DNA of 64,000 nt. Origin: Winogradskyella wandonensis. Its GTDB lineage: Bacteria; Bacteroidota; Bacteroidia; Flavobacteriales; Flavobacteriaceae. The DNA is taken from contig NZ_SMGI01000004.1 in NCBI RefSeq assembly GCF_004346845.1, positions 1 to 64,000 on the forward strand, given 5' to 3'. Shown piece by piece: positions 27,004 through 38,275 of this stretch. The number at the start of each line of letters is the position of its first letter. Position 1 is the first letter of the stretch. Both the position numbers and the translations under genes were made by a program. The notes beneath the pieces were generated by a model, which saw nothing but the letters and a program-made list of their open reading frames with translations, made no database searches and had not been told where the DNA came from.

Positions 27004-28131
27004 ATGAATGCTAAATTACTTGAAGTTGCACGAGTGTTTTTTAAACTGGGTTGTTTTGCCTTCGGAGGTCCTGCAGCTCATATTGCAATGATGGAAGACG
27101 AAATCATCGAAAAGCGTAAATGGATGACTCGTGATTACTTCTTAGATTTGATTGGTGCCACAAATTTAATACCAGGCCCCAATTCTACCGAAATGACCAT
27201 GCACTGCGGTTATGAACGAGCAGGTAAAGCAGGTCTTTTTGTAGCTGGCATAGCATTTATATTTCCTGCTACTGTTATCACTGCTTTTTTAGCTTATCTC
27301 TACGTTAAGTATGGTCAATTACCAGAAGTAGAACCTTTTATTTATGGAATTAAACCTGCAGTCTTAGCTATTATTGCCTCTGCAATTCTCAAATTAGGTA
27401 AAAAAGCGATAAAGAGTGCAGAGCTAATTATTTTGGGATTGTTGGTTTTAATAGCAAGTTTACTTGGGGTAAACGAAGTTGTAGGGTTGTTAACAGCTGG
27501 AGTTTTGGGGATGTTATATTTTTATATAAAAAGTAAATCAATAAGCGATTTTAAAAGTGTAACTCCTTTCATTTTTTTATTCGGAATTCAAGCAACAGCA
27601 ACAAAAGTATCTGCTATAAAACTTTTCTTTATTTTTCTTAAAGTTGGAGCTATACTCTACGGCAGTGGCTATGTGCTCTTTGCTTACTTAGATGCAGAAT
27701 TAGTCACTAGAGGTTTATTAACCAGGTCCGAACTTATAGATGCTATAGCAATTGGACAATTTACACCTGGGCCAGTATTATCTACATCTACGTTTATTGG
27801 ATATCAACTATCTGGTTTTAGTGGAGCTTTGCTGGCAACGACAGGTATCTTTTTACCATCTTTCTTATTTGTGTTAATATTAAATCCATTTATTCCAAAA
27901 ATGAGAAACTCTAAAATTCTTAGAGGTTTTTTGGACTCAGTTAATGTTGCAGCAGTGGCTGTGATGTTAGCCGTATTAATCGTCATGGGTAAAGAAACGT
28001 TGATAGAATGGCAAAGTATAGTTATTGCCTTAATCGCTGTCCTTTTAACGTTTAAAACAAAAGTTAGCACGATTTGGACAATCCTTATTGGAGCTATTTT
28101 AGGGTTTTTCTTATTGACTTTTACAAAGTAA
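27004..28131 (+). CDS. chrA: Chromate transporter (CHR family)
   Basis: A 375-residue membrane protein made of two homologous CHR halves. Half one begins VFFKLGCFAFGGPAAHIAMM with ATNLIPGPNSTEM; half two has FLKVGAILYGSGYVLFAYL and IAIGQFTPGPVLSTSTFIG. These FGGPAAHI and PGPxSTxM/FTPGP motifs are the family signatures. It exports chromate, though in many marine bacteria the true substrate may be another oxyanion. It follows the Na/Pi cotransporter gene by 17 nt, so the two are likely co-transcribed. Confidence 0.9.
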   Translation: MNAKLLEVARVFFKLGCFAFGGPAAHIAMMEDEIIEKRKWMTRDYFLDLIGATNLIPGPNSTEMTMHCGYERAGKAGLFVAGIAFIFPATVITAFLAYLYVKYGQLPEVEPFIYGIKPAVLAIIASAILKLGKKAIKSAELIILGLLVLIASLLGVNEVVGLLTAGVLGMLYFYIKSKSISDFKSVTPFIFLFGIQATATKVSAIKLFFIFLKVGAILYGSGYVLFAYLDAELVTRGLLTRSELIDAIAIGQFTPGPVLSTSTFIGYQLSGFSGALLATTGIFLPSFLFVLILNPFIPKMRNSKILRGFLDSVNVAAVAVMLAVLIVMGKETLIEWQSIVIALIAVLLTFKTKVSTIWTILIGAILGFFLLTFTK

Positions 28132-28157
28132 AAAAGCCACCGATTAGGGTGGCTTTT
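28132..28157. terminator. Bidirectional terminator between convergent genes
   Basis: AAAAGCCACC and GGTGGCTTTT form a 10-bp perfect stem with a 6-nt loop, directly after the chromate transporter stop. It serves that gene and the convergent PiT gene. Confidence 0.85.
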
Positions 28158-28189
28158 AACAATAATTAAGGTTATTTATACTTTGCGTT

Positions 28190-30490
28190 TTATAACTTTT
28201 TGTCCGTATCAACATTTGTTCCGTCTACAATCTCTATGGTAGCAGGCTCTACAGAAGCGTCATGGGCACTGTGGTATTCCTCTAGAAGATTCATAGTCGC
28301 ATTAATTAAATCTTTTGTCTCAAGTAAAACACTGAAGTATAAGGTGGTATTTTTAGGACTAGACTCTTCAGTACGTGTACGCTTGACTTGTTGCTTTATC
28401 TTATCCTTAACAAGGTCATAAACTTCTTTTTTCTCGTTTATGATAGCTCCAATGTCCTCAAAAGATTCAGATTTAAATGCCTTTTCTGTGTCGGCAAATA
28501 AAACCTCAAGCTTATCATCTATTTCCTTTAACTCTTTAATTTGGCTAAACTTAAGTTTTTTGTGGTTGTTATTAATATGCTTATGACTCACTTTAGAAAT
28601 ATACTCTAGTGATTGTGCCATATCTTGAAGGTGCCCTAGAATGTTAATATAAAAGTTGCTGGCTTCGACACTAGATTCATCTAGATTTTTGATGAAATAG
28701 AATATATTATCACGTAATGTATCAATTTCATTAGATAATTTAACCACTTGTCCTTTACTCTTCTTTAGTAGTGGTAATTCTTGTTTCGCTAAACCAACAA
28801 TAGAATTAGAGTATATTCTGTTGGTGCGTTTCACAACCTTAGCAATATTTCTGGCACTCTCGTGAATAACACCCTGTACAGAACTAATTTCTGCCGTTGT
28901 TAAACTGTCTTCATCAATTTTGCTAGTAGATTTATCTTTATGTGATTTATAGTTTCTATATAATAAGATAGCGGTTAGTAATAGAAGAATTGGTATCATG
29001 ACACTTGGATTCCAATTAATTAAGAATACCACAAAACCAGCAGCAATAAATGCACCTATAGCGGTTCCAAACCATCCTCCAATGACGTTTAATACACCAG
29101 CTACACGATATACTGCACTTTCTCTTCCCCAAGCTCTGTCGGCTAAAGACGTACCCATAGCCACCATAAACGTTACGTAGGTTGTTGATAGCGGTAACTT
29201 CATGGAAGTAGCTATAGCAATTAATATACCTGCAACCATTAAATTAACTGAGGCACGAATCATATCGAATGCAGGAGCATCGATACTTTGGTCTTTCGTC
29301 AAAACGAAATTTGGTTTTTCAAAGCTTTTACCAATCTTTTCTCGAACTGACTGAGGTACTATGGCTCCGAAATATGTTGACAATTGAGTAGTTCCTTTTA
29401 CTACTGCTCTAGAAAGTCTATTTGGTTCAAATTTCTCGTGCGTTTCACCTTGTCTAGATAAACTTATTTCTGTTTCAGCAACCGTTTTAGCCTTTTTAGA
29501 AAGCCACAAGGTTAATACCATAATTGCTCCAGCAATAAATAACAAATAAGGTTCTGCAGGCACTTTTTTCTCTAACACGGCCATTGACATAGCTACATCC
29601 ATACCTCCAGCTGCCCAAGCTTCGTAAGAGTGGTAAGCTGCCATTGGTACACCAATAAAGTTTACTAAATCATTACCAGAAAAGGCTAAAGCTAATCCAA
29701 AGGTTCCCACCGCTATTACAACTAGTAAAACCGTTTTTTTGGCTAGCATTTCAAAAACATACGAGAATATGGTCCAAAAGACAAAACTTCCTAATATAAT
29801 AAAGATTTCATTACCTTCAAGTAAGCCTTTTAAATCTGAATAATAAGGTGTCCCTTTTAAACCTTTTAAGAAAATGAAGTAGGTAATAGATGCCAATGCA
29901 ATACCACCAAAAATAGCTCCAAAATTCTTTACCTTTTTTTCATGATTGAAGGTAAAAATAAGCCTGGATACCCATTGAACAAATGCTCCGACGGAAAATG
30001 CTATAACCACAGACAGTAAGATTCCACCAATAATTTCAGTGGCTTTTTTAGTATTTATATAACTTCCTAAATCTGCGAGAGATTGAGTGTCTGAATGGCT
30101 AATTTTAATCAATGACATAACTACCGCTGCGCCTAAAAGGTTAAATACGATAGAAACTGTAGTAGAAGTTGGTAAGCCCAACGTATTGAAAAAATCTAAT
30201 AACAAGATGTCCGTAATCATTACGGCCATGAAGATGAGCATGATTTCACCAAACTCAAACTGCGCGGGCACAAAGATTCCTTTTCTAGCTACCTCCATCA
30301 TACCACTTGAGAAAACAGCTCCGATAAAAATTCCTAAACTCGCAACAATCATTATTGTTCTTAAAGAAATAGCTTTAGAACCAATTGCTGAATTTAGAAA
30401 GTTGATAGCATCGTTACTAACACCAACGATAATATCGAACACAGCTAATACTGTGATTGCAATCAACATAAATAAATAAATATTATCCAT
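28190..30490 (-). CDS. PiT-family inorganic phosphate transporter with PhoU-like C-terminal domain
   Basis: A 766-residue protein. The N-terminal part (about 1-510) is a PiT permease with the paired signatures GVSNDAINFLNSAIGSKAIS (about 23-42) and FSGNDLVNFIGVPMAAYHSY (about 270-290), and a second half with MKLPLSTTYVTFMVAMGTSL. It is larger than plain PiT (about 400-500) because residues about 540-740 form a cytoplasmic PhoU-like helical domain. It imports phosphate driven by a cation gradient. Its promoter carries two GTTA 11-mers 22 bp upstream of the -7 box, as do the porin and TonB receptor genes. Confidence 0.93.
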   Translation of the reverse strand: MDNIYLFMLIAITVLAVFDIIVGVSNDAINFLNSAIGSKAISLRTIMIVASLGIFIGAVFSSGMMEVARKGIFVPAQFEFGEIMLIFMAVMITDILLLDFFNTLGLPTSTTVSIVFNLLGAAVVMSLIKISHSDTQSLADLGSYINTKKATEIIGGILLSVVIAFSVGAFVQWVSRLIFTFNHEKKVKNFGAIFGGIALASITYFIFLKGLKGTPYYSDLKGLLEGNEIFIILGSFVFWTIFSYVFEMLAKKTVLLVVIAVGTFGLALAFSGNDLVNFIGVPMAAYHSYEAWAAGGMDVAMSMAVLEKKVPAEPYLLFIAGAIMVLTLWLSKKAKTVAETEISLSRQGETHEKFEPNRLSRAVVKGTTQLSTYFGAIVPQSVREKIGKSFEKPNFVLTKDQSIDAPAFDMIRASVNLMVAGILIAIATSMKLPLSTTYVTFMVAMGTSLADRAWGRESAVYRVAGVLNVIGGWFGTAIGAFIAAGFVVFLINWNPSVMIPILLLLTAILLYRNYKSHKDKSTSKIDEDSLTTAEISSVQGVIHESARNIAKVVKRTNRIYSNSIVGLAKQELPLLKKSKGQVVKLSNEIDTLRDNIFYFIKNLDESSVEASNFYINILGHLQDMAQSLEYISKVSHKHINNNHKKLKFSQIKELKEIDDKLEVLFADTEKAFKSESFEDIGAIINEKKEVYDLVKDKIKQQVKRTRTEESSPKNTTLYFSVLLETKDLINATMNLLEEYHSAHDASVEPATIEIVDGTNVDTDKKL

Positions 30491-30513
30491 AATTTTTTGT
30501 TTAAAAAAGCATG

Positions 30514-30564
30514 CAAATATCGTTAGATTTTGCAGCCGGTAGGTTACCTAAATGTTATATTTTA
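30514..30564 (-). promoter_or_regulatory. PiT promoter with Pho-box-like 11-bp repeats
   Basis: Minus-strand -7 box GATATTTG (30514-30521, 7 of 8 to TAnnTTTG) and a weak -33 CTA (30540-30542). Immediately upstream lie two 11-mers read on the plus strand, GTTACCTAAAT (30543-30553) and GTTATATTTTA (30554-30564). The first repeat begins 22 bp from the -7 box. A further GTTA at 30522 is 21 bp away on the other side. Confidence 0.55.
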
Positions 30565-30569
30565 AGATT

Positions 30570-31775
30570 TTAAAAATGAATATCAAAACCTAGTCTAAAG
30601 GTAATATTATCTTCATTACCATCGACAGTAGTATAACTGATATCAGATTGTACTTTTAATTTATGGCCAACAACAAATTTGTTAACACCCAAGGTATATT
30701 GCCTTTCAGGAGCACGATTAGTAATGGATTCGAAATTTGTTTGCGTATAACGCCCAGCAATTTCATAATTACTTTTAAACAAATAACCAGCTTGTAAGTT
30801 TAATGCATTACCTGTTAACACAACATCTCCTGTCGGAGTAACACCATCTGCTTCAGTAGCTATTTCATCATCGGCAGTTCGTTTAGCGTATTCACCCATG
30901 AATGAGAATCCGTTGTACTTAAACATTGCATCAGCAAAAACAGTGGTTTGGTCAGTTTCGTATAGTGTACCATCTGTACGTAGCATATAATCACCTGCAA
31001 ACCCTCTTTCTCTTACTGCATTTTGATTATAGTTGTATGTAAGGCCAACCATTAGTTTAGGCTTTTCTTCTCGTTTCAAGTCTGATTGAGAATAATCGCC
31101 TTTTGATTTAAAAGTACCAAACGGTAAAAACTCTACACGAGCAGTATATTGCAAACCACCTTCGTTTCCTTCAGTCACGTTCCGGCCTTCACCTTGAGAA
31201 AGGGAAAGTTTTTCACGCATTAAAAAATCTTTACCGAGTTTAGTTTTATGACGTAATTGAATACCTAGGTCACGGTCAATATTGAAGCGACTATTTAATA
31301 AAGACCGATCTACAAGTTGCATATTTGCCGAGGATACAACACGCTCCACATTTCCAGGCAATTTAGTTTGACCTGCCCAAAGTTCCCAATTTCCAGCAAA
31401 ATTCCACATAATTACCGCATCTAAGATGTAACGAGGTGTATTTCTGTTGAATTGATTTGCTCCGGAAATATCTCTATTAGACAAACCCAGCTCTATCTTA
31501 TATTTTAATTTTGAACTGTAGGCAAAGCCATCGAACTTTAATCGTGCTCGTCGAACGATAAAGTTGTGCTCAGGGCTAACATATTGATTACCATCGTGGT
31601 CCCAAGAGGATATAGAACGTACTTGGAAGCGAGGGGCGAATTTTACACTAAAAGAACTGTCCTTTGCGGTGAAGTTAATTAATCCTTTTCCGAACTTTGT
31701 ATCGCTAATTTCTTGAGCGTCAACAAAGGTCAATGTAAAAATAGCAATAGCTATTAGGCTAAATTTCAGTTTCAT
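30570..31775 (-). CDS. Phosphate-selective porin (OprO/OprP family)
   Basis: A 401-residue outer-membrane protein with signal peptide (about 1-20, ending VDAQ). The mature part is a 16-strand-type barrel. The family signature is FSVKFAPRFQVRSISSWD followed by FIVRRARLKFDGFA, and DIHF at the C-terminus gives the terminal aromatic residue. It is expected to let phosphate or polyphosphate cross the outer membrane. It sits 79 nt upstream of the PiT gene on the same strand and has a promoter of the same architecture. Confidence 0.88.
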   Translation of the reverse strand: MKLKFSLIAIAIFTLTFVDAQEISDTKFGKGLINFTAKDSSFSVKFAPRFQVRSISSWDHDGNQYVSPEHNFIVRRARLKFDGFAYSSKLKYKIELGLSNRDISGANQFNRNTPRYILDAVIMWNFAGNWELWAGQTKLPGNVERVVSSANMQLVDRSLLNSRFNIDRDLGIQLRHKTKLGKDFLMREKLSLSQGEGRNVTEGNEGGLQYTARVEFLPFGTFKSKGDYSQSDLKREEKPKLMVGLTYNYNQNAVRERGFAGDYMLRTDGTLYETDQTTVFADAMFKYNGFSFMGEYAKRTADDEIATEADGVTPTGDVVLTGNALNLQAGYLFKSNYEIAGRYTQTNFESITNRAPERQYTLGVNKFVVGHKLKVQSDISYTTVDGNEDNITFRLGFDIHF

Positions 31776-31801
31776 TTTGAAAGTATTAGTTTTTGTCGCT
31801 G

Positions 31802-31863
31802 CAAAGAACTTATATATTCAATAAACCAATGTTTCTTAAAAGTTAAGTTTAAGTAAAAAAAAA
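31802..31863 (-). promoter_or_regulatory. Porin promoter with Pho-box-like 11-bp repeats
   Basis: Minus-strand -7 box GTTCTTTG (31802-31809) and -33 TTG (31827-31829), spacer 17. Directly upstream, on the plus strand: GTTTCTTAAAA (31831), GTTAAGTTTAA (31842), GTAAAAAAAAA (31853), in exact 11-bp register. The first repeat is 22 bp from the -7 box, as in the PiT and TonB promoters. Confidence 0.5.
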
Positions 31864-31884
31864 CTGCCTTTTATAAGGCAGTTT
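31861..31884 (-). terminator. Orphan terminator-like hairpin upstream of the porin gene
   Basis: AAACTGCCTT and AAGGCAGTTT form a perfect 10-bp stem with a 4-nt loop. On the minus strand the stem is followed by nine T, so it should terminate minus-strand transcription, yet no minus-strand gene lies upstream. It may end an unannotated small RNA from 31885-32147, or attenuate the porin leader from a more distal promoter. Confidence 0.6.
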
Positions 31885-32071
31885 GGTAGGAAATCATATA
31901 ATGAAGTCGACAAAAACTAATACATATATGAAAACCTAAATGTGTATTGTATATGACAAAGAACTTAGTTATTGTTAAACTAAACGTCATGCTAATATTA
32001 ATTTATTATTAAAAAAATAAGGGTTTGGAAATAGTTTAAAGTTTTGAAAAACAGTATACTACAATTGCAAT

Positions 32072-32125
32072 GTTAACTTAATGTTACTCAAAAGTTGCTT
32101 TATTGTTAATTGTTGTATATATTTG
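32072..32125 (+). promoter_or_regulatory. Promoter with four 11-bp-spaced GTT repeats
   Basis: The -7 box TATATTTG (32118-32125) is a perfect TAnnTTTG and TTG at 32095-32097 fits as -33 (spacer 20). Overlapping it are four consecutive 11-mers: GTTAACTTAAT (32072), GTTACTCAAAA (32083), GTTGCTTTATT (32094), GTTAATTGTTG (32105). The repeats point the opposite way relative to the gene compared with the porin, PiT and TonB promoters, and overlap the -33. Confidence 0.6.
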
Positions 32126-32147
32126 ATACAAGTACAAATTATATTTC

Positions 32148-32507
32148 ATGAAAAAGATAGTATTGCTCCTTATTGCTTTCACAATGACAACGGCCTTTTA
32201 CGCTCAACAAAAGCGCGATTTAAAACTAAATAAAGACTCTGAATTAATAGAGGTGGTTTATTATCATGATAATGGAGAAATAAGCCAAACAGGATTTTAT
32301 ACTCTTGAGGGTAAATTACAAGGTGATTGGTTTAGTTATAATTCGGAAGGACAAAAGTTAACCTCTGCAAAATATGATAACGGTCAGAAAGTTGGAAAGT
32401 GGTTTTTTTGGAGTGGAGACAAATTAAAAGAGGTAGATTATTCGAAAAATAGAATTGCTAAAGTGAGTGAATGGACCAATAAAACCACCATAGCATCTAA
32501 CAAATAA
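32148..32507 (+). CDS. Secreted MORN-repeat protein
   Basis: A 119-residue protein with signal peptide (1-20, ending YAQQ). Three MORN-type beta hairpins follow: YYHDNGEISQTGFYTLEGKLQGDWFSYNSEGQKLTSAKYDNGQKVGKW in broken form across residues 38-88 (YHDNG, GDWFSYNSEG, GKWFFWSGDKL). Similar short proteins are often mislabelled as antitoxins or adenylyltransferases. Role unknown. Controlled by its own promoter with an 11-bp-periodic repeat array, and closed by a terminator shared with the convergent gene. Confidence 0.7.
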   Translation: MKKIVLLLIAFTMTTAFYAQQKRDLKLNKDSELIEVVYYHDNGEISQTGFYTLEGKLQGDWFSYNSEGQKLTSAKYDNGQKVGKWFFWSGDKLKEVDYSKNRIAKVSEWTNKTTIASNK

Positions 32508-32531
32508 TAATTAACTAACTATAAAACGAAA

Positions 32532-32554
32532 AAGGCATCCAATTTGGATGCCTT
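32532..32554. terminator. Bidirectional terminator between convergent genes
   Basis: AAGGCATCCAA and TTGGATGCCTT form a perfect 11-bp stem with a very short loop, between the MORN protein and beta-helix lipoprotein genes. Confidence 0.75.
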
Positions 32555-32579
32555 CTTCGTTTTTATGAAATAAAGAGGA

Positions 32580-33890
32580 TTAAAATCTAACCCAACCTAA
32601 CGTCCAATCGTTTGCTGCATCAACTGCACCTACGTAGTTAACAGAAGTAAACCATGAGTTAATAGTAGATGGGTCTATAGCATTAGCTTCGTACGTTCCT
32701 CTAATACCATCCAATTCAAAATCAGAAGGAATTGCTGTACCAGCATTATTAAATGGAGCGCCTGACCCGTCTAAAGTATAGTTTGAATACAGAGAAAAAT
32801 CAGCAAAATCTACAGTAGCATTTCCGCCGTGATCTAAATCAAAAGAATTGACATTATCTATAATAGAATTTCTAACTTCAACTTCGCCATTGTTTAAATT
32901 AATTAGAGTTTGATCATCGTCAACCTCAATCCCTTTTCCTGGAAATCCTTTAATAATCATGTTGTAAGCTGCCACTTTTGTACCTGCTCTAAACTCTATT
33001 CCTTTATTCTCGCCATCGCCATCTTCTGCTCCTAATAAAGTAATATTAGAAATTGTAGGGTAAGAAAACGGAACGGCATCTGGTGTCGAAGATAAATTAT
33101 CGGCTTCGATACCTTTGTCTCCTTCTAAAGATGTTTGTTGCACAACCCAGAATTGACCTCTACCAACCCAGCCGTCAGTCCAATCAAAACTATCGTCTTG
33201 TGCACCTGTAGAAACAGCATATTTTAAATCTACTGTGCCACCATAAAATTCAATACCATCATCGTTTCCTAAATACGTTTGGATGTACTCTAAAGTTGTA
33301 CCGCTACCAACGCCGTATAACGACAAACCATTATATTCCGAGTCTGCATTAATACGGCCACCGCTATATTCTAAACGGACATAGCGTAATATACCTGAGT
33401 TGTCGGTTGCATCTGTTCCGCCATAAGAGATGTTTGCTACTTCTGCAGTCGCTGTTGTGCCTCTGTTTATTGGAGCTTTACCAGCTATAATTAGTCCGCC
33501 CCAGTCACCTGGATTAGGAGTGTTTTGGTTAGATGTAAAAACAATAGGCTCAGAAGCAGTACCTTCTGCCATTATTTTAGCACCTTGATTAATCAATAAG
33601 TAAGAAAAAATACCATCAGTAGACTGTCCAGCAACAATTCTTGTTCCTGCTTCAATTGTAATGGTAACACCGTCTACTACAGATACACCACCTACCAACT
33701 GATAGCAATTATTAGATGTTAACGTAATATCTGATGTAATTTCTCCGGATAATTCAATGCAATCAGAGCCGTTTGAGCCTCCGCCTGGATTAATAGTGAC
33801 ATCTCCAATAGTTTCTTCGTTAATTGTACATGCTTGAAACACTATAACAAAAGCTATAAATACACTTTTAATTAAATTCTTTGTTTTCAT
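32580..33890 (-). CDS. Surface lipoprotein with right-handed beta-helix fold
   Basis: A 436-residue protein with lipoprotein signal (residues 1-21, Cys in FQACTI) and a Gly/Ser-rich linker. The rest shows repeated rungs of a right-handed beta-helix: TITIEAGTRIVAG, EPIVFTSNQ, ADSEYNGLSLYGVGSG, NDDGIEFYGGTVDLKYAV and NKGIEFRAGTKVAAYNMII. It ends LGWVRF. It lies 28 nt downstream of the TonB receptor gene, so the two form a receptor and surface-lipoprotein pair. The presence of the Pho-like operator ahead of the receptor suggests a part in phosphorus uptake; substrate not known. Confidence 0.75.
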   Translation of the reverse strand: MKTKNLIKSVFIAFVIVFQACTINEETIGDVTINPGGGSNGSDCIELSGEITSDITLTSNNCYQLVGGVSVVDGVTITIEAGTRIVAGQSTDGIFSYLLINQGAKIMAEGTASEPIVFTSNQNTPNPGDWGGLIIAGKAPINRGTTATAEVANISYGGTDATDNSGILRYVRLEYSGGRINADSEYNGLSLYGVGSGTTLEYIQTYLGNDDGIEFYGGTVDLKYAVSTGAQDDSFDWTDGWVGRGQFWVVQQTSLEGDKGIEADNLSSTPDAVPFSYPTISNITLLGAEDGDGENKGIEFRAGTKVAAYNMIIKGFPGKGIEVDDDQTLINLNNGEVEVRNSIIDNVNSFDLDHGGNATVDFADFSLYSNYTLDGSGAPFNNAGTAIPSDFELDGIRGTYEANAIDPSTINSWFTSVNYVGAVDAANDWTLGWVRF

Positions 33891-33918
33891 TGTTTTTAAT
33901 TTTTGATTGTGTTGTTCT

Positions 33919-36705
33919 TTAAAATTTGTAAGTAAAACCTAAACTAAAGTTTGCACCTATTTGGTAAGAACTTACAGTGAGTTCTTGATTAATATCTTCT
34001 TGATCTTGGTATCTGTCTATGGTTGGATTTAGGATGTTCTTTGCAGAAAAACCAATCTCCCAATGCTTATTTATAACATCTTTAAAGTTGAAGTTTAATG
34101 TAGCAAAACCTTTTTCGAAAATGTCACCCACACCATTTCCGCCAGCTGAATATATTCTATCACCGAAGTAATTAAAATCAAAAGTGGCCGATACATCATG
34201 GTTACCAAATTCTTTAGAAAAATTGATATCAGTATTAAAAATGTATGGTGACGCACCTTGTAATTTACGTTCTAAATTAGTTGGAGCGATTGATGCATTT
34301 AATACGGTTACGGTAGGATCTATAACAACTTTAGTATACATTACTGTTGCATTAAGACCAAAAGAGAAGTTGCTTAATAAGCTTTCGTCATCTTCGTTGG
34401 TAAAAATATTGTTTAGTTGTTGTCTATACTCAACCTCACCACCAAAAATTTTGGCATTATCAGAGTTTACAAACGAGTTATTGTTATTAGCGGATGCTAT
34501 TCTAATTTTCTCGATAGGTTGATCTAGGTATTTACCAAAAGCACCTACAGAGAATACTTCGCCATTTCTAGGAAAGTACTCGTACTTAATATCTACGTTA
34601 TAGTTGTCCGAGTTTGTTAGGTTAGGATTACCAATGGTAAACTCGTTAACATCTTCATCTAAGAAAGGCGCAGTTTCGGTAAAAAGCGGAAGTGTAACCG
34701 ATTTACTCGCTGCAAAACGTAGGTTGGTTTTTTCATTTAAAACATACTTTACGTCCAAGCTCGGCAAGATAAAAGTTTCGTCGATTGTACCAACAGAGTC
34801 TTCGATTGTAACGGGGTCTTTAAAGAATACATTCTGTTCGAAATCTTCAACTCTTAAACCTGCATTTATGACTGTTTTTTCTGAAGCTTGCCATTTCAGC
34901 AAAGCGAAACTTGCAAAATTGCTAAAGTCTGCTGTGTATGAGTTTTGTGGACGTGTTACCTCTAAAACACTATAGACATCGTTTAGCAGATTTGTTTCAT
35001 TTAAAAATGCATCTGGATTGTTAAATTCTACAACGCTGTTGTTTGCATCAAATATGTAATTGATTTGCTGTGCTTCAAAATCACGGTCCTTGGTTCTTGT
35101 ATTGATACCAAAGGTTAACTTGTTCTTGTAAACGTCGTCTTCGTCTTTTGAGAAGTTAATATCAAAAGCCACGTTTGTCGAAAAATCGTCTTCGTTTAAT
35201 TCTTGATAAAAACGCTGGTTGTCACTATCGTTTGTGTTTCTAAAGTTACCAAGAACTACAGAGCCATCTTGTCTTTCCGAAAAGAATAGTTGTCTTCTGT
35301 CTGGAATATACCCCAATGCTTTATTATAAGCAGCACCATAGTTAAGTTGGTATTTGCCTTCATTAAATTTATGTTCACCAGTAATCTGCTGAGTAAATAA
35401 ATTGTTCTGCTGAAATGTACCACGTCTTACAAATGTATTTAGCTCTGTATTTTCACCAGATACACCCGTAAATTCTCTTAGTTCGTCTTCGGTGTCGTTA
35501 ACAAAAAGCGTAGTAGATGTAATGGTATTATTAGAATTCCACTTAAATGAAGCACTACCTAAAACAGTAGAATTAGTAGTGTATTTATAACGGTTATAGT
35601 CAAACAAGAAGGAGCCTAAGTCTAATTCGCCTTGAGAGTTGTAAACAGTCTCAAAACCATCAATCGTAGCTTCATGTCCGTTGCTAAATGACCCTAAAAC
35701 TAAAATATCTAATTTGCTTGATTCTCCTGTTTCAAAACTGTGACCTGCCAATATATTTGCGTTTACATTTGGACCATCTAAGCGTTGTTCTGGGTTAAAG
35801 CCTGTTTTAAATGGATACAGCTCTATATCGTTACTGTTGTATGTGTAACCAGGGATATTTAATAGAGGCGTTGGGCTTCTTGAGCCATCGTCTAACCCGA
35901 AGAAATCGTATTTTCCACCGCCTAAAAGAAAGAAATCATTAGATATTGCTGTAGTGTTTACGCCAGAACCAAACCCTATCTCTAATAGCTCTTTTCCCGG
36001 TCTATCTTTGGTGTTTATATCTACACTAGCGCCAGCAAAATCTCCATACAAGCTAGAAGAATACGCTTTGTAAATTCCTAGATTTTCAACAATCTTAGTA
36101 GGGAAAATGCCTAGGTCCAACAACTTAAGTTTTGGGTTTAAGGAAGGAATAGGTAAACCATTTAGGTAAGCAGTATTGTAACGGTCACCTAAACCTCTAA
36201 CATAAAGCTTATCACTTTCTTTAGAAATACCTGCGGCTTTAGTTAATCCTGTTGCTACATCGCCTACACCTTTTTTAGACAATTCGGTAGCACCAATTTT
36301 GGTTTGTATTGTTGTTGCCTTTTTTTGCTCTAAAAGGATGGCGCTCTCTGTTTCTCTTTTAGCTGTAGTTTTAATAACAACTTGATCAAGAGTGGCAGCA
36401 CTAGCACCCATAATTACATCAACTGTTTTTGTTTGTCCTGCGATAACCTCAACTTGTCTTTCGATAGTTTCGTATCCAACAAAACTAAAAATTACTGTGT
36501 ATGTGCCAGGACTTAAATTTTCAATAATATACTTACCATCAATATCCGAAGTTGTACCGGTTGTAGTGCCTTTAATAAGAATATTTGCAAAAGGTAACGG
36601 TTCGTTATTAAAATCTTTGTCAGTTAATTTACCTGCTATAGCACCTGTTTGTGCAATGGTAATTACCGAAAAAAATAATGTAAAAATGACTAAAATATGT
36701 TTCAT
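33919..36705 (-). CDS. TonB-dependent receptor with CarboxypepD_reg-like domain
   Basis: A 928-residue outer-membrane receptor when started at the ATG at 36705 (MKHILVIF), which gives a good signal peptide ending IAQTG; the TTG at 36732 is less likely. Domains: carboxypeptidase-regulatory-like beta-sandwich about 20-110 (GKLTDKDFNNEPLPFANILI, YTVIFSFVGYETIE), plug about 115-250 (YVRGLGDRYNTAYLNGLPIP), and a barrel to the C-terminal Phe (SLGFTYKF). The FxPYVRGLGDRY type plug is found in receptors paired with beta-helix lipoproteins, as here. Energised by TonB; substrate inferred to be a phosphorus compound only from the operator and location. Confidence 0.9.
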   Translation of the reverse strand: MKHILVIFTLFFSVITIAQTGAIAGKLTDKDFNNEPLPFANILIKGTTTGTTSDIDGKYIIENLSPGTYTVIFSFVGYETIERQVEVIAGQTKTVDVIMGASAATLDQVVIKTTAKRETESAILLEQKKATTIQTKIGATELSKKGVGDVATGLTKAAGISKESDKLYVRGLGDRYNTAYLNGLPIPSLNPKLKLLDLGIFPTKIVENLGIYKAYSSSLYGDFAGASVDINTKDRPGKELLEIGFGSGVNTTAISNDFFLLGGGKYDFFGLDDGSRSPTPLLNIPGYTYNSNDIELYPFKTGFNPEQRLDGPNVNANILAGHSFETGESSKLDILVLGSFSNGHEATIDGFETVYNSQGELDLGSFLFDYNRYKYTTNSTVLGSASFKWNSNNTITSTTLFVNDTEDELREFTGVSGENTELNTFVRRGTFQQNNLFTQQITGEHKFNEGKYQLNYGAAYNKALGYIPDRRQLFFSERQDGSVVLGNFRNTNDSDNQRFYQELNEDDFSTNVAFDINFSKDEDDVYKNKLTFGINTRTKDRDFEAQQINYIFDANNSVVEFNNPDAFLNETNLLNDVYSVLEVTRPQNSYTADFSNFASFALLKWQASEKTVINAGLRVEDFEQNVFFKDPVTIEDSVGTIDETFILPSLDVKYVLNEKTNLRFAASKSVTLPLFTETAPFLDEDVNEFTIGNPNLTNSDNYNVDIKYEYFPRNGEVFSVGAFGKYLDQPIEKIRIASANNNNSFVNSDNAKIFGGEVEYRQQLNNIFTNEDDESLLSNFSFGLNATVMYTKVVIDPTVTVLNASIAPTNLERKLQGASPYIFNTDINFSKEFGNHDVSATFDFNYFGDRIYSAGGNGVGDIFEKGFATLNFNFKDVINKHWEIGFSAKNILNPTIDRYQDQEDINQELTVSSYQIGANFSLGFTYKF

Positions 36706-36729
36706 CAGTTTTTTTGTAATTTGATGCTG

Positions 36730-36824
36730 CAAAGAAAGGACAGCTTTTGTAGTTTCAGGTTAATCAAAAATTATCCCTTGGTAATTAAAAGGTTATACAA
36801 AAGTTACCCAATCATTAACAGAAA
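36730..36824 (-). promoter_or_regulatory. TonB receptor promoter with seven-unit 11-bp repeat array
   Basis: Minus-strand -7 box TTTCTTTG (36730-36737) and -33 CTG (36756-36758). Plus-strand 11-mers in unbroken register: TGTAGTTTCAG (36748), GTTAATCAAAA (36759), ATTATCCCTTG (36770), GTAATTAAAAG (36781), GTTATACAAAA (36792), GTTACCCAATC (36803), ATTAACAGAAA (36814). The 36759 unit is 22 bp from the -7 box, identical to the porin and PiT layouts. The array also lies upstream of the divergent dGTPase gene. Confidence 0.65.
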
Positions 36825-36934
36825 GCGCAATTACGAAACGATTTGTTAACATAAAAAGGTTGCTTTATTTTCAAGCAAAAGCCTATACTGTCTTTCTCAA
36901 TTTATTTATCTTGCTTTCCTAATTTAATCCAACC

Positions 36935-38275
36935 ATGAACTGGGAACAACTACTTTCTTTAAAACGATTTGGAGATACTAATAAACGCTTACGAAAAGAA
37001 CAAGACGAGACACGCCTAGGCTTTGAGGTAGATTATGATCGCGTTATTTTTTCATCAGAATTTAGAAGTCTTCAAGACAAAACGCAAGTTGTTCCTTTGT
37101 CTAAGACCGATTTTGTGCATACACGCTTAACACATAGTTTAGAGGTTAGTGTTGTTGGGCGTTCACTAGGCAGACAAGTAGGTAGGCTTATTCTAGAAAA
37201 GCATCCGCATTTGCAAAATATTCATGGATATCAAATTAATGATTTCGGTGCTATTGTCGCCGCAGCAGCACTGGCACACGATATCGGGAATCCACCTTTT
37301 GGACACTCAGGAGAAAAGGCCATAGGCGCCTATTTTTCTGAAGGTAAGGGTGTTAAGTTTAAAAGCGAATTAACACCGAAACAATATCAAGATTTATGTG
37401 ATTTTGAAGGCAATGCCAATGGGTTTAAAATCTTAACCGAAAGCCGAGAAGGTCGTAAAGGAGGATTACGTCTTAGTTATGCAACATTGGGTGCTTTTAT
37501 GAAATATCCTAAAGCTTCACTGCCAAAGAAGCCAACGTCGCACATAGCAGATAAAAAATATGGTTTTTTTCAAAGTGAAGAAGAGACGTTTATAGAAGTA
37601 GCAGAAGAGTTGGGTTTAAAAATACGAGATGCAAAGAATAAAGCGTTTGCTAGACATCCATTAGCGTATTTAGTTGAAGCTGCTGATGATATTTGTTATA
37701 CTATTATAGATTTTGAAGATGGTATAAATCTTGGTCTTATAGAAGAAGATTATGCATTAGAATATCTTATTAAACTTGTAAAAGACACAATTAATACGGA
37801 CAAGTACGCGGCTCTAAAAACAACCGAAGACCGTGTGAGTTATTTAAGAGCTTTGGCTATTGGCACTTTAATTAACGAAGCCGTTTCAATATTTATGAAT
37901 AATGAAGACAAAATACTTTCAGGTGATTTTGATACCGGACTTTTAGATGTAAGTCGTTATAAAGCCCAGATAAAGGACATCATAGATATTAGTATAAAAA
38001 ACGTATATCAATCTACAGAGGTCGTTGATAAAGAAATTGCTGGTTATAAAGTGTTAGAAGGTCTATTATCTGTATTTGTAAATACCGCTAGTAATGTTTT
38101 TAATAATACTTTATCTAGCTACGACTCATTAGTTTTAAAGATGCTTCCAGAAACCGTTAAACTCTCAAACACATCATTATACGATAATTTAATGGCAATC
38201 TGCTTGTACATATCCAAGCTCTCGGACTCCAACGCAATGCTTTTATATCATAAAATTAGAGGAAACACTATTTAA
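36935..38275 (+). CDS. dgt: Deoxyguanosinetriphosphate triphosphohydrolase
   Basis: A 446-residue HD-domain dNTPase, which hydrolyses dGTP to deoxyguanosine and triphosphate. The HD superfamily metal ligands are visible in HTRLTHSLEVSVVGR (His), LAHDIGNPPFGHSGEKA (His-Asp with the invariant GNPPFGHxGE), and EAADDICYTIIDFEDG (Asp). Length agrees with type II dGTPases. It balances dNTP pools, complementing the ribonucleotide reductase and dCMP deaminase elsewhere in the window. Confidence 0.95.
   Translation: MNWEQLLSLKRFGDTNKRLRKEQDETRLGFEVDYDRVIFSSEFRSLQDKTQVVPLSKTDFVHTRLTHSLEVSVVGRSLGRQVGRLILEKHPHLQNIHGYQINDFGAIVAAAALAHDIGNPPFGHSGEKAIGAYFSEGKGVKFKSELTPKQYQDLCDFEGNANGFKILTESREGRKGGLRLSYATLGAFMKYPKASLPKKPTSHIADKKYGFFQSEEETFIEVAEELGLKIRDAKNKAFARHPLAYLVEAADDICYTIIDFEDGINLGLIEEDYALEYLIKLVKDTINTDKYAALKTTEDRVSYLRALAIGTLINEAVSIFMNNEDKILSGDFDTGLLDVSRYKAQIKDIIDISIKNVYQSTEVVDKEIAGYKVLEGLLSVFVNTASNVFNNTLSSYDSLVLKMLPETVKLSNTSLYDNLMAICLYISKLSDSNAMLLYHKIRGNTI

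Follow-up and report, generated by a model that had tools for sequence, protein, structure and literature searches.

Phased 11-bp repeats at phosphate-related promoters of Flavobacteriaceae: a putative Pho-box-type operator and a candidate small RNA complementary to the porin message

What regulatory signal lies in front of the phosphate-related genes of Winogradskyella wandonensis, and does the same signal govern anything else in the locus? An earlier note on this DNA proposed that 11-bp repeats upstream of three genes, placed at a fixed 22 bp from the -7 box and beside a weak -33 element, form the flavobacterial counterpart of the Pho box. We followed this proposal in the window, i.e., the whole stretch of 64,000 nucleotides that was analysed, and in related genomes. 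The genes concerned are the following:

28190..30490, minus strand: PiT-type phosphate transporter gene (Pfam PF01384, 104 bits)
30570..31775, minus strand: gene of the phosphate-selective porin O/P family (Pfam PF07396, 51.9 bits)
32148..32507, plus strand: gene of a small MORN-repeat-like protein of 119 aa
32580..33890, minus strand: FII gene, named by analogy with the F. johnsoniae lipoprotein gene adjoining a phoBR-linked TBDT
33919..36705, minus strand: TonB-dependent receptor (TBDR) gene (PF13715, PF00593, PF07715)

The Pfam search returned no match for the FII protein, nor for the 119-aa protein at 32148..32507, which we take to be a MORN protein. By analogy of position with the accessible text of PMC8115612, FII may be the counterpart of the F. 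johnsoniae FII lipoprotein. Divergent from the TBDR lies an HD-domain (dGTPase-like) gene, assigned by Pfam (PF01966). A single scan with the PiT protein supplied the relatives: the 80 loci compared here are the best 80 of 579 confirmed stretches, and their titles are nearly all of Flavobacteriaceae or its genera. PiT, porin, MORN-repeat gene, TBDR and FII-like gene cluster together in many of them.

Direct reading confirmed the 11-bp repeats upstream of PiT, porin and TBDR; two further arrays, at 31969-32013 and 32067-32110, had been missed. The arrays and their -7 boxes are:

30543..30564, minus strand: PiT array, two units (TATAAC and GGTAAC), those at 30543/30554 being GTTACCTAAAT-GTTATATTTTA
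30514-30521, minus strand: PiT -7 box
31826..31858, minus strand: porin array, units at 31831/31842/31853 being GTTTCTTAAAA-GTTAAGTTTAA-GTAAAAAAAAA
31802..31809, minus strand: porin -7 box, GTTCTTTG
36759..36824, minus strand: TBDR array, six units (three GTTA, two ATTA, one GTAA)
36730..36737, minus strand: TBDR -7 box, TTTCTTTG
31969..32013, minus strand: array of three to four units in front of a candidate sRNA (see below)
31957..31964, minus strand: sRNA -7 box, GTTCTTTG
32067..32110, minus strand: MORN array, four units reading TAACATT on this strand, against the direction of MORN transcription
32118..32125, plus strand: MORN-gene -7 box, TATATTTG
36834..36855, plus strand: possible two-unit site between TBDR and the divergent HD-domain gene, pointing to the latter

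Since PiT, porin and TBDR are on the minus strand, the repeat unit is of the TAAC type in the direction of transcription. In the porin array GTTA occurs in the middle unit only, the third unit is nearly poly-A, and the proximal TTAACATT unit found in many relatives' porin arrays is degenerate. The MORN array carries the common unit in reversed orientation and extends close to the MORN -7 box. When the unit model was re-estimated without the window and both strands of the 64 kb were ranked, the top three-unit sites were MORN, TBDR, sRNA and porin, in this order; the PiT site ranked 7th when three units were scored, and shared 2nd place with porin when two were scored. The possible site at 36834-36855, with 13.4 bits, was 4th among the two-unit sites of the window.

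A tied 11-bp model of 290 regions gave the unit NWTAACATTNA. It replaced a free-width EM motif search, which was confused for PiT, the upstream regions of which contain porin coding sequence. Identical 5-mers in the relatives' upstream regions were counted against dinucleotide shuffles, and a distance of 11 was by far the strongest upstream of porin (117 pairs, z 18, n=56) and of PiT (148 pairs, z 19, n=81; next best 16, z 4). Distances 33 (z 8) and 11 (z 6) led upstream of TBDR (n=52), FII reached z 5 at 11 and z 6 at 33 (n=34), and MORN, initially meant as a control, gave z 31 at 11 bp (n=52).

The register relative to the promoter was counted only in sequences with a TTTG box (porin 51/56, PiT 72/81, TBDR 40/52, sRNA 39/49, MORN 40/52). 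In the window, the 22 bp from the first repeat base to the upstream end of the -7 box is exact for all three promoters of the earlier note (box ends at 30521, 31809 and 36737) and equals 26 nt from the conserved C of the unit to the first T of TTTG. Among relatives this distance takes the values 15/26/37/48/59/70/81 nt, and 412 of the 599 units counted in four promoter classes are at a phase of 4 mod 11: porin 116/166, PiT 120/170, TBDR 99/123 and sRNA 77/140. The 26/37 register of the PiT array is retained in relatives. MORN units, in turn, stand at 6 mod 11 in 120 of 170 cases. The "fixed 22 bp" is thus one of several allowed positions within an 11-bp phase to the -7 box. The -33 element, expected at a spacing of 25-26 nt, is indeed weak; this property does not discriminate, as TTG stood at the expected place in only 5 of 63 control TAnnTTTG matches.

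Which genes carry such arrays was judged against a 99% line of 11.0 bits for three units, set with 256 control regions taken upstream of non-target genes in these loci; the unit model had been trained on the target regions that it then scored, NptA and the controls being excluded from training. Above this line were 53/56 porin, 52/52 MORN, 40/49 sRNA and 34/52 TBDR regions, and 33/81 PiT regions (70/81 for two units). Of the 18 TBDR regions below the line, 16 belong to loci in which FII, in the same orientation, precedes the TBDR gene. NptA upstream regions passed in 3 of 9 cases. The three best controls were an FII-facing intergenic region (L063), situated between FII and a gene like the HD-domain gene of the window, a region before an unidentified gene (L066), and one upstream of pstS (L040), assigned by its sequence and the pstS search. 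Upstream of phoB, 24 of 30 regions (the best 30 of 77 matches) passed, all with reversed arrays; the count for pstS was 4/9, and that for coding stretches of 230 bp was 1/270. The pstS count includes L181, which has no array (5.7 bits). The porin gene lies directly upstream of pstS in six of the nine genomes (L174, L175, L177, L179-L181), and four of the five pstS misses are genomes with the porin gene just upstream.

Searches of 80 family genomes found PhoB in 77 and, with one query at E<=1e-20, pstS in nine; the own genome gave no pstS. Phosphate sensing apparently proceeds without Pst in most of the 80.

In the own genome the phoB array is at C4:151557-151585 (L089), between phoB and a divergent gene for which DUF5689 is the sole Pfam match in the part examined. 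A sequence-only profile, with three window sites in its training, gave 21 matches at E<=10, nine of them overlapping reading frames: five are in this locus (TBDR, MORN, sRNA, PiT and a site at 36828; porin is not listed) and one is at phoB. The earlier note held that equal occurrence at unrelated genes would speak against an operator. For strong sites the occurrence was not equal; at a loose level the own genome showed no excess, TAACATT-N4-TAACATT with 2 of 14 mismatches matching 79 times versus 151 for the reversed pattern. The exact pattern GTTA-N7-GTTA-N7-GTTA, too strict, had no match there. A perfect two-unit site was observed at G000 C3:81216 (L084), upstream of a DUF4870 gene and a divergent gene.

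With arrays at porin, PiT, TBDR, phoB and some pstS genes, and next to none in coding stretches, a flavobacterial Pho-box-type operator, as first proposed, is the best reading of the repeats and a well-supported one. By their sequence and distribution, the arrays are very probably where the phosphate-starvation regulator of marine flavobacteria binds, and we infer that this regulator is PhoB and that the genes respond to phosphate. The PHO box of PhoB and PhoP replaces the -35 element. In E. coli, B. subtilis and Streptomyces it likewise consists of direct 11-nt repeats at Pi transporter and regulator genes. The features that mark a PHO box recur here: two or more direct 11-nt repeats; overlap with the -35/-33 position at a set distance from the -10/-7 box, with the core 26 nt from TTTG and in 11-bp phase; and location at phosphate genes and the regulator's own gene, not generally, with pstS reached in under half of its cases and no excess in the loose scan. 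The E. coli sequence CTGTCAT is absent, the flavobacterial core being TAACATT. The flavobacterial unit resembles the TTAACA unit of B. subtilis, a likeness for which our literature search found no confirming paper. As the accessible text of PMC4415409 describes the PHO box, its unit is of 11 nt and its consensus is species-specific, so CTGTCAT is no defining feature of the family as a whole. Unlike known PHO boxes, the flavobacterial arrays comprise 2-6 units phase-locked to a Bacteroidota-type -7 box, and are reversed at phoB and MORN.

Two systems of the phylum may be set beside this locus. In F. johnsoniae, the TBDT Fjoh_0545 and the lipoprotein FII Fjoh_0546, beside phoBR, changed by +8.0 and +9.9 log2 on phosphate depletion, whereas OprP (Fjoh_0542) of the phoBR cluster was not induced (-1.3, p 0.25) (PMC8115612). 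These are the same kinds of genes (TBDT, FII) as in the window, a likeness of kind drawn by analogy; that study reports expression, and the words Pho box, motif and promoter are absent from its main text. For the PhoRB system of B. fragilis, also a member of this phylum, EMSA with a 512-bp fragment as probe showed binding of PhoB to the pstC promoter; neither "consensus" nor "binding site" appears in the accessible text (PMC3547664). Here pstS was found, with the one query, in only 9/80 family genomes. Our literature search, with most subscription papers outside its reach, yielded neither an operator consensus nor a phosphate sRNA for Bacteroidota.

The array at 31969..32013 lies between the MORN array and the porin operator; on the porin strand it is followed by what we strongly predict to be a small RNA, unannotated and apparently undescribed so far. 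Its elements and the matching porin stretch are:

31951-31855, minus strand: candidate sRNA of ~97 nt, with the 5' end deduced from the position of the -7 box
31906..31923, minus strand: sRNA loop/seed, GTATTAGTTTTTGTCGAC
31855..31884, minus strand: sRNA intrinsic terminator, an 8-pair helix
31783..31798, minus strand: porin 5'UTR stretch CGACAAAAACTAATAC, a perfect 16-nt complement of the sRNA loop region

The candidate has its own array, its own -7 box and a Rho-independent terminator, all recognised from sequence only. An anchor search located it in 49 of the 81 sequences compared (the 80 loci plus the window), four false anchor matches (L055, L060, L064, L069) having been excluded by hand. 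In the 47 aligned sequences, from which L021 and L066 were left out, the terminator helix shows both-side changes in 7 of 8 pairs, and GTTTTTGTCG is invariant; four sequences outside the alignment (L021, L066, L215, L216) have A for the last G of GTTTTTGTCG. Inspection of the alignment led us to set aside the idea that the region encodes a leader peptide. Against Rfam, positions 28000-38000 gave six sub-threshold matches, none above its gathering score.

A covariance model with only the terminator helix as structure, E<=2.3e-6 being taken as strong, matched the own genome at E 7e-15, the window being among the training sequences. Strong matches were found in 55 of 120 family genomes; some of these genomes are apparently identical with training loci, so the figure maps the distribution and is no independent test. 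In a class sample of 247 genomes the own genome was the only strong match, and six other genomes of the same family gave none. A second copy in G088 was rejected, both matches lying at contig ends; the single match outside the family (E 2.9e-5) was without the seed.

The longest Watson-Crick run between each sRNA and its own porin 5'UTR averaged 12.8 nt over 47 loci versus 6.7 nt for shuffled UTRs, and measured 16 nt in the window. With relatedness uncorrected in both tests, only 7 of 10000 UTR permutations reached the own-pair run length, and none of 20000 was as good as the own-pair duplex energy (-27.7 over 46 loci, versus -23.9 for swapped pairs; L029, with a mis-set start, was left out). 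None of 143 other gene starts equalled the porin in duplex energy, and the other two own-genome 12-mers that match the seed complement are located within reading frames. Enterobacterial sRNAs of the MicF and MicC type bear a terminator and pair at the 5'UTR and start codon of an outer-membrane porin. The present candidate is like them by description; it differs in being encoded next to its target, apparently under phosphate control, and in another phylum. The candidate RNA is most likely a PhoB-driven brake on porin translation. As its promoter is array-driven and of the same type as that of the porin, the two would be made together, which would also suit an RNA that activates the porin, e.g. 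by protecting the 5' end of its message; we consider this unlikely, since 41 of 44 predicted duplexes pair two or more bases of the start codon (L029, L031 and L036 not counted), which speaks against activation.

Does the RNA travel with its presumed target? An orthologous porin (E<=1e-120) was present in 64 of the 120 family genomes, a cut-off set after viewing the list (72/120 at 1e-40). RNA and porin occurred together in 50 genomes, RNA only in 5 and porin only in 14 (Fisher 3.5e-15, relatedness uncorrected), the weak sRNA matches just upstream of porin in G031 and G074 being counted as porin only. Among 66 porin genes, GACAAAAA was present in 48/49 with the RNA versus 2/17 without it (Fisher 8e-12), and with GACAAAAAC the counts were 44/49 versus 2/17. 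This comparison left out L054 and L072 (no porin match) and the weak L050 and L266; also dropped were L265 and L270 (duplicates of L074 and L019), and L001 and L033, in which the contig ends within the porin. On the best porin tree, which has many weak branches, 11 or more changes of the RNA state are needed. The seed, as in antisense sRNAs, is conserved, complementary to the target message and co-varying with it; on supported branches the independent sRNA/UTR-target pairs are 3:0, too few for significance. In G107 the porin is gone and the sRNA remains, with no other exact 12-nt sRNA target in that genome. In G071 (L192) and G110 (L187) a different porin-like gene (PF07396 tested for G071) stands behind the same array, promoter and 5'UTR.

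The complementary stretches might instead be a feature of the DNA, i.e., the palindromic GTCGAC or a relic of an inverted duplication of the porin start, with no RNA pairing. The seed contains GTCGAC in most sRNA sequences, short inverted copies arise easily, and three loci (L030, L027, L079) break the rule that RNA and UTR target go together. We nevertheless hold this explanation to be improbable: own RNA/UTR pairs fit better than swapped ones by run length and by energy, a second pairing block with a 2-nt bulge changes jointly on both sides, and the UTR block is usually missing where the RNA is missing.

It is still less probable that the "sRNA" belongs to the porin mRNA as its 5' leader and nothing more, namely an attenuator with a bypassed terminator and with pairing in cis. 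Such a leader would agree with the position of the sRNA within 260 bp upstream of the porin, on the same strand, in 47 of 49 same-contig genomes. Against it, a separate porin array and -7 box follow the sRNA terminator. Moreover, in L021, G101 and G078 an opposite-strand SulP-type transporter and a carbonic anhydrase (PF00916, PF00484) separate RNA and porin by ~3 kb, and a similar block does so in L071; the two-block pairing with its 2-nt bulge is kept in all these separated loci, with matching changes in G078. On balance we favour a phosphate-controlled, trans-acting sRNA whose sole target evident so far is the phosphate porin, which would have co-evolved with it across Flavobacteriaceae and would cap porin synthesis in starvation. 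On the same footing, the sRNA/porin pair would have survived the 3-kb insertion, been jointly absent in several lineages, and kept its UTR even in front of replacement porins.

As to the protein that binds the arrays, the own genome has three OmpR-type regulators, and we know of no phosphate role for the MORN gene or the HD-domain gene with its possible site, points that count for another OmpR-type or a general envelope-stress regulator in place of PhoB. This is very unlikely, given the arrays at phoB itself, at some pstS genes, at PiT and at porin, and an 11-nt tandem geometry that is the one of PhoB-type sites elsewhere, as described in the accessible text of PMC4415409.

We return to PhoB, for which the following course of events can be proposed. 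When phosphate is scarce, PhoR would phosphorylate PhoB, whose molecules would bind side by side along one face of the DNA, one to each 11-bp unit. The TAAC cores would stand at about -22, -33, -44 and further, so that, as we propose, one unit replaces the -33 element, and the PhoB chain would recruit RNA polymerase to the TTTG -7 box. This would switch on the PiT transporter, the phosphate porin, the TonB receptor with its lipoprotein, and the ~97-nt RNA. By its loop the latter would base-pair with the 5' end of the porin message, the predicted duplex reaching across the start codon, and would most likely limit porin translation, i.e., act as an incoherent feed-forward brake. The reversed arrays before phoB and the MORN gene may confer autoregulation of uncertain sign. 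Taken whole, with PhoB-bound arrays activating PiT, porin, TBDR and sRNA, and the sRNA braking the porin, we judge this explanation to be probable.

Bacteroidota abound in seas poor in phosphate and on the roots of plants. Their life on roots is also mentioned in the abstract of PMC8115612. A unit with a defined register makes the regulon predictable from sequence. The presence of PhoB in 77/80 but of pstS in only 9/80 family genomes bears on phosphate sensing without Pst. Few sRNAs are, to our knowledge, characterised in Bacteroidota; if the present reading is true, this one would be a phosphate-regulated antisense RNA with a natural test set, the genomes that have kept it, split it from its porin or lack it.
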